In this document: in pieces, positions 42,177 to 50,123 of the stretch
How the letters are laid out: every line of letters starts with the position of its first letter
Numbering within the stretch: position 1 is the first letter of the stretch
DNA from: Bacilli bacterium
Lineage (GTDB): Bacteria; Bacillota_I; Bacilli_A; RF39; UBA660
NCBI GenBank assembly: GCA_017428495.1
Contig: JAFRQS010000031.1
Span: 1-64,000, forward strand
Length of the DNA stretch: 64,000 nt
Reading direction: 5' to 3'
Notes under the pieces: model-generated
What the model was told of the DNA's origin: nothing
Databases searched by the model: none
The model's input: only the letters and a program-made list of their open reading frames with translations
Translations under genes and position numbers: made by a program

Positions 42177-42200
42177 AAAAACTACTTAAACAGTAGTTTC
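42177..42200 (-). terminator. terminator after the cold-shock gene
   Basis: AAACTACT pairs with AGTAGTTT around a short loop at 42177-42200, overlapping the csp stop, with a T run on the minus strand. Confidence 0.65.
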
Positions 42201-42398
42201 TACAACAGCAGTTACATTTATTGCTTGTAACCCTTTTTCGGTCTCAATTAAATCAAATTCAACTAATTGACCTTCTGTAAGTGTTTTGTAACCTTGCTTT
42301 TTAATAGCTGAATAATGTACGAAGATATCTTCACCTTCTAAATACTCAATAAAACCATAGCCTTTATCGTTATTAAACCACTTAACGTTGCCTCTCAC
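42186..42398 (-). CDS. cold-shock domain protein
   Basis: 70 residues: [28 protein letters not shown] contains RNP1 (KGYGFIEY) and RNP2 (DIFVHY), the single-stranded RNA/DNA-binding motifs of CspA-type chaperones. It starts with GTG, with GGAGAGG upstream. The ~75 bases before it hold a strong hairpin that could influence expression. Confidence 0.92.
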
Positions 42399-42458: not shown

Positions 42459-42696
42459 TCAATAAAATGCGTTCGATAAAATACTACAACTTTCGCGCTC
42501 ATTTATAATATCAATTATTACTATTTCAAATATTATTTTTTGTATGAAATGTAGTTTTTTATGTATAAATGGTAAAACCTATTTTTTAATTTCATAATAC
42601 TTGATTTTATAATCTATAAATTTTTATTTATATATAATTTTTTACAAATTTATTTTTTTTAAAATTATAATGACTTTGATAATAAAAGGGGTATAT

Positions 42697-43299
42697 ATGA
42701 AAGAAATATTTTTAAATAAATCTATTAATTTATTAATGAAGCAATATAACTATGATGAAGATACATTAGATAGAGTTAAATATGGATTAGAGCTAATATA
42801 TGTTACTCTTTCTAAAATAATAGTAATACTTATAATATCTTTAATTTTTAATTTATTTAAAGAAACTTTATTAACTCTTATATTTACCAATTTTATTAGA
42901 ATGTTTGCATATGGATTACATGCGAAGAAAAGTTGGCATTGCTATATATCCAGTATTATTAGTTTTGTTTTTTTACCATACTTATTTGTAAATATATCTT
43001 TTAGCATTATTCAAAAAGTAATTATATGCTTTTGTATATTATTATCAATGATTTTATATGCACCAGCTGATACTTATAAAAGACCTTTGGTGAATGAAAA
43101 TCATAGAAAAAAACTAAAACAAAATTCTATATTAATAACAAGTATATATATTATACTTATATTTAAAATCAAATTTTATTTTATTACAAATCTTATGTTG
43201 TTATCACTAATAATCCAATCATTTCTAATTAACCCATTTATATATAAATTATTTGACTTGCCATATAATAATTACAAGTCATACAAAAAAGACTGCTAA
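42697..43299 (+). CDS. agrB: AgrB-type peptide-processing membrane endopeptidase
   Basis: About 200 residues with several membrane helices. The catalytic pair lies in FAYGLHAKKSWHCYISS (His and Cys seven apart, as in AgrB). AgrB cuts the AgrD C-terminus, cyclises the peptide as a thiolactone and helps export it. Start set at MKEIFLNKS, nine codons after the first Met, because AAAAGGGG lies seven bases before it. TTTACA (42641) and TATAAT (42666) upstream could be a weak promoter with a 19-base spacer. agrD follows 33 bases on. Confidence 0.92.
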   Translation: MKEIFLNKSINLLMKQYNYDEDTLDRVKYGLELIYVTLSKIIVILIISLIFNLFKETLLTLIFTNFIRMFAYGLHAKKSWHCYISSIISFVFLPYLFVNISFSIIQKVIICFCILLSMILYAPADTYKRPLVNENHRKKLKQNSILITSIYIILIFKIKFYFITNLMLLSLIIQSFLINPFIYKLFDLPYNNYKSYKKDC

Positions 43300-43332
43300 A
43301 TTGCAGAAATAGAATAAAATGGAGGTGAAATA

Positions 43333-43452
43333 ATGAATTTAGTAACTAAAATATTAAATAGTGCTGCTTTAGCTTCTGCTAAAAGTAGTGAAAGTACTTG
43401 CCCTGCTATTGCATTTGATGAACCAAAAATGCCAAGTAGTATGATTAAGTAA
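43333..43452 (+). CDS. agrD: AgrD-type autoinducing peptide precursor
   Basis: 39 residues: an amphipathic leader MNLVTKILNSAALASAKSSE, the core STCPAIAF and the acidic recognition tail DEPKMPSSMIK. The tail matches the DExxxP pattern of AgrD proteins needed by AgrB. The predicted signal is a thiolactone joining Cys23 to Phe28 (or a neighbour), with Ser-Thr as possible exocyclic residues. A strong GGAGGTGAAATA site precedes the ATG. Confidence 0.88.
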   Translation: MNLVTKILNSAALASAKSSESTCPAIAFDEPKMPSSMIK

Positions 43453-43465
43453 TAATTTTTAAAAT

Positions 43466-43495
43466 AAAAATCTACACATTTGTGTAGATTTTTTT
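43466..43495. terminator. bidirectional terminator between agrD and agrC
   Basis: AAATCTACAC (43468-43477) pairs with GTGTAGATTT (43482-43491), flanked by A and T runs between convergent genes. Confidence 0.8.
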
Positions 43496-44780
43496 AGATT
43501 TTTACTTTCAAATTTGATATAAATTCAGCATCTATTAACTCTATATCTAATGTAATGTCTTTTTGATGCTTTAATATATCTTTTATTAATGACATACCAT
43601 ATCCTCTGTTTTTAGACTTTGTTGAAAATCCATCATTCATAATATTATTTATATTTATATCTTTAGTACAATAATTTTTCATATTCATGTAAAATACATT
43701 TTTATTTATAGAAAATTGTATGTCAATATATTTCTCTTTTTCACTATCTTCTGCTTCGATAGCATTATCTATCAAAATACCAATTATTTTTAAAACTTCT
43801 TTATTAACTTTTGGAGATAATTTATCAAATCTTTTAAGACTACTTAATACTTGAAGATTTACATTTATTTTGTCATTAATATGTGAAAATTTATAATATA
43901 TTAATCCTTTTAAACCCCTAGGCAATTTATCAATGTTTTTAATAATTGAATTTTCTGAAACATTTCTTTGTTCATTAATAATTTCATCAACGTATTCTTT
44001 AAGTTTTTTATTATCACCTATATATCCATTTATTATAATTAATTGATTATTATAGTCATGAATTATTTTTCTTTTTTCAACCAACTCTTTTTCATATTTT
44101 TCTAAATACTTAAATAATTCATTATAATTTTCGGATAATTCATTAACCTTATTATTTTCTTTATAATATAAAGAAAAAATTGCAATAAATGTAATTAAAA
44201 CAGTAATATTAACAAAAATATTAACTATGTTATTAATTCCTGTTGTATTTTTATATGCTAGTGCTGCAATTATTAATAAAAATAAAAATGTAATAAATAT
44301 TTTCCCATTCTCATCAATTTTATTTACTATTTTATATACAATTTTATTTAAAATATTTATTAACAATAATAAAAGGGTAAAAATTCCAACAATTAATGCA
44401 CCTATTGTGGTTCCTAGTATATTATTAAAAATAAATGTATAATCAAATGGTAATAATGAACATATTATTGCAGTCATTATTTCACCTATAAACATATAAA
44501 AAGTTGCTGCTATTACATATAAGAATGTCTTTCTATAGTTTATATTAAAAATATTTTTTATACATATTAATATGAATGGAAATGTTAACAATATTTTAAA
44601 TAAGTCTTTATTAAATATATTAATTATACTTAAAGCTAAAGATGAAATAAAAATATTTAATAAAATTATTCTTTTATTATTTGTTATTTTAGTCTTAAAT
44701 ATTATTTTGACAACATATAAATATAAAATCATATTTATTGCTGCACCTACAAACAAATCTATATACTTAATCCATTGCAT
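43494..44780 (-). CDS. agrC: AgrC-type sensor histidine kinase
   Basis: 428 residues. N-terminal half has six to seven membrane helices that would bind the cyclic peptide. The cytoplasmic part begins with EKRKIIHDYNNQLIIINGYIGD (phospho-acceptor His in the HDYxN motif typical of AgrC), then a GHKL ATPase domain with IGILIDNAIEAEDSEKEKYI (N box) and KSKNRGYGMSLIKDIL (G box). It is transcribed toward agrBD and overlaps agrA by 14 bases. Confidence 0.9.
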   Translation of the reverse strand: MQWIKYIDLFVGAAINMILYLYVVKIIFKTKITNNKRIILLNIFISSLALSIINIFNKDLFKILLTFPFILICIKNIFNINYRKTFLYVIAATFYMFIGEIMTAIICSLLPFDYTFIFNNILGTTIGALIVGIFTLLLLLINILNKIVYKIVNKIDENGKIFITFLFLLIIAALAYKNTTGINNIVNIFVNITVLITFIAIFSLYYKENNKVNELSENYNELFKYLEKYEKELVEKRKIIHDYNNQLIIINGYIGDNKKLKEYVDEIINEQRNVSENSIIKNIDKLPRGLKGLIYYKFSHINDKINVNLQVLSSLKRFDKLSPKVNKEVLKIIGILIDNAIEAEDSEKEKYIDIQFSINKNVFYMNMKNYCTKDININNIMNDGFSTKSKNRGYGMSLIKDILKHQKDITLDIELIDAEFISNLKVKI

Positions 44781-45483
44781 ATTCTTTCACATCCTTTATA
44801 TACCTTCTTGATAATAAATCTATCTTAGTATTATTGATAAATGTTATATTTTTATTTATTGTATCAATACTTTTTATATTATTTAGATTAACTATACATG
44901 ATCTATGTGTAAATATAAAATTACCCTTTAGTTTTTCTTTTATATTTTTTAAAGTTGAATTTATATCATATTCTTTTGTTTTAGTTACTATTTTTAATTT
45001 TCTATTATAACTATCATAAGTTATATATAATATATCTGCATAATTTATCTTTTCATATTTTCTGCCACATTTAATACTTAATTTATCATTTTTTAATATA
45101 CCCTGTACACATGTATTTATAGTTTCATACATTTGTTTATCATATAAATCAAATTTAGATATAAAATCAAATAACAATATTTTTGATTTATATGCTACAT
45201 ATTCTAATTCATAATGTGCTGTTAAAATTAGAATTATACTATTCCAATCTTTTTTTCTTATGTTTTTTGCTACTTCTATTCCTGAATATTTACCAACTTC
45301 AATATCTAAAATATATATTTTATTTTCTAAATCAGACTTTACTATGTTTTTAAATTTTGAATCATAATCATTAAAGGTATATATTTTATAATCAATACTT
45401 GTTTTAAACATTACTTTAGTAATTATACTTTTTACTAAATCTGTAATTTCTTTTTCATCATCACATACTATAAAATTTATCAT
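44767..45483 (-). CDS. agrA: AgrA-type LytTR response regulator
   Basis: 238 residues. Receiver domain with the acidic pair (NFIVCDDEKEI), phosphorylation Asp in YILDIEVGKYSGIEVAK, and a C-terminal LytTR DNA-binding domain (KYEKINYADILYITYDSYNRKLKIVTKTKEYDI ... FIFTHRSCIVNLNNIKSID). It would activate agrBD and target genes when AgrC senses enough peptide. First gene of the agrA-agrC pair. Confidence 0.92.
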   Translation of the reverse strand: MINFIVCDDEKEITDLVKSIITKVMFKTSIDYKIYTFNDYDSKFKNIVKSDLENKIYILDIEVGKYSGIEVAKNIRKKDWNSIILILTAHYELEYVAYKSKILLFDFISKFDLYDKQMYETINTCVQGILKNDKLSIKCGRKYEKINYADILYITYDSYNRKLKIVTKTKEYDINSTLKNIKEKLKGNFIFTHRSCIVNLNNIKSIDTINKNITFINNTKIDLLSRRYIKDVKEYAMD

Positions 45484-45662: not shown

Positions 45663-46205
45663 ATGAGTTTAATTATTCCTTATGAAGACAAATTAGATAC
45701 TTGTAATGGTGCTGTGATAAAACCAAATGGTAGTATTATTTATACATATGGAGAACATGAATCTTTTGCAAAAAATTATTGTAGAGGAAAAGACTATAGT
45801 TTATTAACAAGTTCTATGATAGAAGGTGTTGATATTTATAGTTCATCTAAATTAACAAAACAACAATTAGAATTATATAAATTATGGTTAAAAAGTGAGA
45901 AGTTCCCATCTAATATAGATTTTATGGTATATTTACTAAGATTTGATAAAGTTGGTACTCTTTTGGGTAATGCTATTACTACTACTAATAATAAACCTCA
46001 TATTAGATTTTATAATTATTATTTAATGGATTGGTACATAGATAAATTATCACCTATGAGATTTAATAAGAAAACAGGCACTTTTGAGTATAATGTAGAA
46101 GAATCATATATTCAATTTGATGATGATGAAGATGCTGCTGAAGAAATAAAAAAAATTAAATCAACTGTATTATGTAAGAAAGATAGACGTGCATTTTTTA
46201 GATAA
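45663..46205 (+). CDS. uncharacterised protein beside the agr locus
   Basis: 180 residues from MSLIIPYEDKLDTCNGAVIKPNG; the ATG follows AGAGGTGTTATTTTA, while an earlier in-frame ATG has no site. Soluble, with no signal or membrane helix; aromatic-rich centre (IRFYNYYLMDWYIDKLSPM) and an acidic patch (FDDDEDAAEEI). No family recognised. It is divergent from agrA and has LytTR-like repeats upstream, so it may be an agr target. Confidence 0.65.
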   Translation: MSLIIPYEDKLDTCNGAVIKPNGSIIYTYGEHESFAKNYCRGKDYSLLTSSMIEGVDIYSSSKLTKQQLELYKLWLKSEKFPSNIDFMVYLLRFDKVGTLLGNAITTTNNKPHIRFYNYYLMDWYIDKLSPMRFNKKTGTFEYNVEESYIQFDDDEDAAEEIKKIKSTVLCKKDRRAFFR

Positions 46206-50029: not shown

Positions 50030-50047
50030 GATTACTCTCCTTCCGCC

Positions 50048-50066
50048 ATGACTAATTATTAGTCAT
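50048..50066 (-). promoter_or_regulatory. leader hairpin of rpmE (L31)
   Basis: ATGACTAAT and ATTAGTCAT form a 9-bp perfect hairpin just before the ribosome site of rpmE. Ribosomal protein L31 genes in Firmicutes are known to carry autoregulatory leaders; this may be one, or an operator. Confidence 0.5.
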
Positions 50067-50123
50067 AGAAATTTAAAAGTCTTACATATTATAACAACTA
50101 TTTTTATATTTATCAACTATTAT

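Follow-up and report, generated by a model that had tools for sequence, protein, structure and literature searches.

A convergent, two-unit agr locus in RF39 with a predicted six-residue ring and a predicted feedback on signal production

The stretch of 64,000 nucleotides analyzed here (the window) carries four agr open reading frames arranged as two facing pairs, agrB-agrD on the plus strand (42697-43452) and agrA-agrC on the minus strand (45483-43494). A first-pass annotation had described a split, convergent agr locus at this place, and its coordinates, gene families and strands all agree with ours. The product of agrB (42697-43299, +), the membrane peptidase that processes AgrD, matched PF04647 (E = 2.6e-35) and contains the active-site His and Cys in the sequence HAKKSWHC; this H-x6-C pattern was present in all 117 AgrBs compared in the order. 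agrD (43333-43452, +; ribosome-binding site GGAGG) encodes the 39-aa signal precursor MNLVTKILNSAALASAKSSESTCPAIAFDEPKMPSSMIK, which scored 24.6 bits against NCBIfam TIGR04223, above the cut-off of 19, and in an alignment with 112 distinct relatives it exhibited a leader, a nucleophile, a hydrophobic ring and an acidic C-terminal tail. agrC (43494-44780, -) encodes a sensor kinase with a hydrophobic N-terminal half, HDYNN (His241), an N-box, GYG and a GHKL domain. It matched the staphylococcal AgrC model NF046015 across its full length (E = 3.6e-23) and scored below the NCBIfam equivalog cut-off of that model (500), as expected outside Staphylococcus. agrA (44767-45483, -), the first gene of its pair, lies upstream of agrC with a 14-nt overlap and encodes a response regulator with a C-terminal LytTR domain; its Response_reg and LytTR domains both exceeded their cut-offs, and the phospho-acceptor Asp59 is in place. 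Judged by sequence, each feature compared (AgrB, AgrD, AgrC, AgrA and a direct repeat described below) assigns the locus to the agr family, and the canonical agrBDCA operon, with four co-directional genes on one transcript, was not found in the window. The locus is internal to a 153.6-kb contig of a 1.24-Mb assembly (33 contigs, 93% complete) and contains the only AgrB of the genome; small single-contig genomes occur in the class. Elsewhere in the window, a 180-aa open reading frame that has no Pfam or NCBIfam match and is absent from the other 119 loci of our set adjoins agrA (45663-46205, +), and a ribosomal protein L31 leader (RF03156, 37.5 bits) was found at 50037-50068 (-).

AgrB was found in 188 of the 288 genomes of the order, representing 75 of 102 genera, and 120 loci were retrieved for comparison. 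Among the 100 loci in which agrC or agrA was visible within 700 nt downstream, agrC was on the strand opposite to agrB in 99, and in the lone exception agrA follows a distant AgrB on the same strand. The convergent layout first noticed at one locus is thus order-wide and not a local oddity. The usual arrangement is secA-hpf-csp<-agrBD>-<agrCA. In the window, csp (42186-42398, -; PF00313, E = 1.7e-27), a cold-shock protein gene, is divergent from agrB, as it is in 99 of the 120 loci, and represents a conserved neighbor, not an agr component. Most of the retrieved regions are short, and hpf and secA were seen in 92 and 73 of the 120, respectively; in the 20 loci where 4.2 kb or more of upstream sequence was available, the corresponding numbers were 18 and 17. 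All agrC genes recognized in the other families of the class are co-directional with agrB (L034, L046, L049, L065, L068, L203, L207, L208, L209 and L211). Because the opposite orientation prevails in the order and the co-directional one elsewhere in the class, the layout is taken to be inherited within the order. Three of the outside loci (L049, L068 and L203) have the co-directional order agrA-agrC-agrB, and inversion of an agrB-agrD segment after agrC would give the present arrangement. We rejected an origin from BDCA by simple inversion of its CA part, since agrA, not agrC, would then come to lie beside agrD. Our search of the open-access literature found no paper on a convergent agr locus. 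Several loci vary in gene content. A tandem pair of agrC genes lies beside a single agrBD in L060, L076 and L143, where multiple receptors are possible; L047 and L048 have distant short AgrB matches beside csp with no agrC and no recognized AgrD, the former with agrA downstream; and L127 has about 1.7 kb between agrB and agrC, within which an open reading frame located between agrD and agrC resembles the DNA-binding part of a transposase.

Between the stop codons of agrD and agrC lies a 28-bp hairpin, AAAAATCTACACATTTGTGTAGATTTTT (43466-43493), at the site where a shared terminator had been proposed. It is the sole terminator-like site in 4.5 kb, where 0.3 would be expected, and its flanking tracts suit termination on both strands; it is probably bidirectional. 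The first-pass annotation had also suggested that transcription of the two strands might interfere, and the layout itself could be regulatory if colliding transcripts or antisense RNA set expression of the signal-making genes against that of the signal-sensing genes. The two pairs are indeed separated by a short gap of conserved length (median 31 nt from stop to stop in the 98 loci with both stops placed), and the convergent layout persists throughout the order's AgrB-bearing genera. Against this, the hairpin between the pairs scored above all 20 of its own shuffles, which preserved base composition but not dinucleotides, in 78 of the 98 loci, and A/T tracts fit for termination on both strands were present in 60. 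Moreover, the hairpin sequence varies between loci while the hairpin itself is kept, which fits insulation. These features in the relatives favor termination over read-through, and we regard interference as a minor and rather improbable rival to an insulating terminator.

We next consider the signal peptide. Of the 112 distinct AgrDs aligned, 103 have D at +1 after the predicted cleavage site, 110 have E at +2 and 97 have P at +3. At position -6, 82 sequences carry Cys, 20 carry Thr and 6 carry Ser (108 of 112, 96%), while positions -5 to -1 are variable and almost never C, S or T. Because the nucleophile stays at -6 while the following positions vary, the ring length seems to hold even where Cys is missing. 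For the window AgrD, a six-residue ring, CPAIAF (codons 43399-43416, +), with cleavage before DEP is most likely, given the aligned cleavage site; by that alignment its Cys lies at -6 and not five residues before the cut as in a canonical five-residue AIP. The peptide STCPAIAF suggested earlier therefore stands as far as CPAIAF forms the ring, but the ST would be a two-residue tail, and the real tail length is not predictable. That the peptide is new held up, as the reviewed list of known signals does not contain it, whereas the claim of a ring poor in aromatic residues applies to this species and not to the family, most of whose rings abound in W, F, I, L and V. The AgrD of the congener L055 is largely kept outside the ring, which reads CPIFVI instead of CPAIAF; all ring residues after Cys-Pro differ, as expected of diverging signals. 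Two further observations concern this region in relatives. In L039, about 490 nt past agrB, a second AgrD-like open reading frame (ending in ACMLLWLDESECPKSL) follows the first (ending in ACIVLWIDEPECPKSLIK). An inverted repeat just 3' of agrB, often GTTTAAA..TTTAAAC, occurs in 44 of 114 agrB-agrD gaps (shuffled, 8.4; largest shuffle, 14) and was not found in the window.

Eighteen of the 20 Thr-type AgrDs lack a Cys at any position from which a ring could start (L033, L064, L106, L112, L118, L122, L130, L134, L136, L140, L144, L146, L153, L154, L168, L169, L170 and L176), and these relatives, unlike the window with its Cys, are predicted to make Thr-lactones. The other two, L058 and L105, have Thr at -6 but Cys at -5 and may make five-residue thiolactones. 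Ser stands at the nucleophile position in L071, L120, L147, L150 and L179. Five changes are required to place the Thr group on the AgrB tree, at least two of which are forced by well-supported branches, and the His-Cys pair is retained in all 117 AgrBs. The reviewed AIP list holds only Cys and Ser as ring nucleophiles (PMC12312760). The Ser-lactone AIPs of S. pseudintermedius and E. faecalis (GBAP) resemble some of the relatives in using an oxygen nucleophile in place of Cys, but that nucleophile is Ser and not the Thr of the 18.

A motif search of agrB-proximal regions yielded TGTCTAAAA-type half-sites arranged as a direct repeat. At the loci of the order, 39 half-site pairs had a pitch of 21, compared with a shuffled mean of 7.3 (maximum of 13 in 20 shuffles) and at most 20 pairs at any other pitch; the reverse strand showed no pitch-21 excess (19 vs 20.3). 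In the window, the predicted AgrA (LytTR) site is the direct repeat TGTATGAAA-N12-TGTATAAAT with a pitch of 21 bp (42541-42570, +). Scored with a model from which the window and its congener had been withheld, this site ranked first of all window positions on both strands, at 20.3 bits against 13.4 for the next, and in G032 the refined pattern matches with zero mismatches at the agrB promoter only. The agrBD promoter, as read from the sequence, is predicted to be TTTAAT, 17 nt and TATAAT (42585-42613, +), and its -10 element at 42608-42613 would place the center of the proximal repeat near -54 relative to the implied start. In S. aureus, the AgrA repeats are of 9 bp with a spacer of 12-13 bp. 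Two such direct repeats, bound by AgrA, are centered near -60 of P2 and of P3 (PMC4227749). The half-site found here has no obvious resemblance to the staphylococcal one; position and pitch are what make binding of AgrA to 42541-42570 likely. Upstream of agrA, we found no pitch-21 excess (7 vs a mean of 6.8 at other pitches), a comparison whose power may be weak, and a motif search there returned only adjacent coding sequence and poly-T. With such a repeat ahead of agrB but none ahead of agrA, AgrA is predicted to amplify only the signal-making half.

This asymmetry and the position of the nucleophile bear on a plainer reading, that of an ordinary agr system with a five-residue ring, or with a neutral layout that was fixed once in the ancestor of the order and has no regulatory consequence. 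Vertical inheritance at one chromosomal position would keep even a neutral layout, the single inversion from the agrA-agrC-agrB order outlined above suffices to create it, and five-residue rings are commoner than six-residue ones among known AIPs (PMC12312760). However, a potential nucleophile is nearly always at -6 and almost never at -5, and a repeat upstream of agrB alone gives the split a predicted consequence. We thus consider an ordinary system of this kind unlikely, and prefer a six-residue ring with feedback on agrBD.

No output gene beyond agrBD was identified by a whole-genome scan for the repeat. The scan gave one high-scoring AgrA-type site besides that of agrB (G000:C2:40-69, L251; 20.0 bits), near a contig end and with no forward open reading frame for about 340 nt downstream, which possibly marks an untranslated RNA or is a relic. 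A regulon scan that allowed two mismatches was discarded as too unspecific (8 hits in the window vs 7.0 expected; genome-wide, 154 vs 97 with the pattern reversed). Sporulation is a plausible output of AgrA if clostridia are taken as the analogy (PMC8534292), and the genome carries Spo0A and SpoIVB-type genes, but co-occurrence gave no support: Spo0A is present in 273 of 288 genomes, and AgrB in 7 of the 15 that lack Spo0A. Spo0A-like boxes (TTCGACA) do occur on the csp side of the csp-agrB gap, paired at a 10-bp pitch in 21 loci (0-5 at other pitches), and the window has one with one mismatch (TTCGATA, 42472-42478). They lie at a median of 83 nt from the csp start, so they were assigned to csp and rejected as a link between agr and sporulation.

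Taking these results together, the locus quite probably encodes a complete agr system in which the signal-making pair agrB-agrD and the signal-sensing pair agrA-agrC converge, with a six-residue thiolactone as the signal and feedback on agrBD alone. We infer that each pair has its own promoter and is transcribed toward the other, and that the hairpin at 43466-43493 insulates them. AgrB would cut AgrD before Asp29 and close Cys23 onto Phe28 to give the thiolactone ring CPAIAF with a short tail. The secreted peptide would then activate AgrC, which would phosphorylate AgrA at Asp59, and AgrA bound to the 21-bp-pitch repeat upstream of agrB would raise agrBD transcription. Feedback would thereby act on signal production only, and receptor and regulator would be expressed independently, whereas in the staphylococcal agrBDCA operon one autoinduced promoter drives all four genes. 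It is very improbable that the locus is instead a decaying remnant in a reduced genome that no longer signals. AgrB was found in no more than 188 of the 288 genomes of the order, and of three congeners searched, one lacks AgrB and another has an orphan AgrB with no recognizable agrD or agrC, indicating that the agr system is dispensable. Nevertheless, four intact reading frames with their key residues, a ribosome-binding site, a predicted promoter and a terminator argue against decay in the window.

Compared with known systems, the locus shares with S. aureus the four protein families, the DE after the ring, the AgrB His-Cys pair and direct repeats near the promoter. S. aureus AgrD is likewise cut before DE. 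The staphylococcal genes form one operon from P2 with a divergent RNAIII and a five-residue AIP ring (PMC12312760), whereas two convergent pairs and a predicted six-residue ring occur here; no RNAIII family match was found in the 64-kb window. For C. acetobutylicum, separate agrBD and agrCA operons (PMC10301443) and a predicted six-residue ring, CVLVTL (PMC10301443, PMC12312760), are described, so that six-residue AIP rings as such are already reported. The present locus resembles it in the division into two transcription units and in the predicted ring size, but agrA comes first here (agrCA is written there), the ring sequence differs, and a LanM-like gene follows in C. acetobutylicum. The nearest listed relative of the window peptide is C. 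difficile Agr1, ANST[CPWII] (PMC12312760); the two start alike, but the Agr1 ring has five residues. Agr1 consists of agrB1-agrD1 only, with kinase and regulator presumed to be elsewhere (PMC8534292).

The agr system is familiar mainly from a few pathogens. RF39 is described as known from environmental sequence surveys only and is predicted to be spore-forming (PMC10868615). For the order as a whole, we tentatively propose, at slightly less than even weight, that AgrA amplifies the signal only, that the pairs face each other over a two-way terminator, and that Thr-closed six-residue rings occur in at least two AgrB lineages. If true, the Thr-lactone would be a type absent from the reviewed AIP list (PMC12312760). 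The AgrD set supplies more than 100 rings from nature, some of them predicted Thr-lactones, with which to probe the tolerance of AgrB and AgrC, and the convergent layout yields a simple, testable prediction of feedback wiring on the signal half only. In this uncultured gut lineage, whose genomes are near 1.2 Mb, agr has been kept for a long time.
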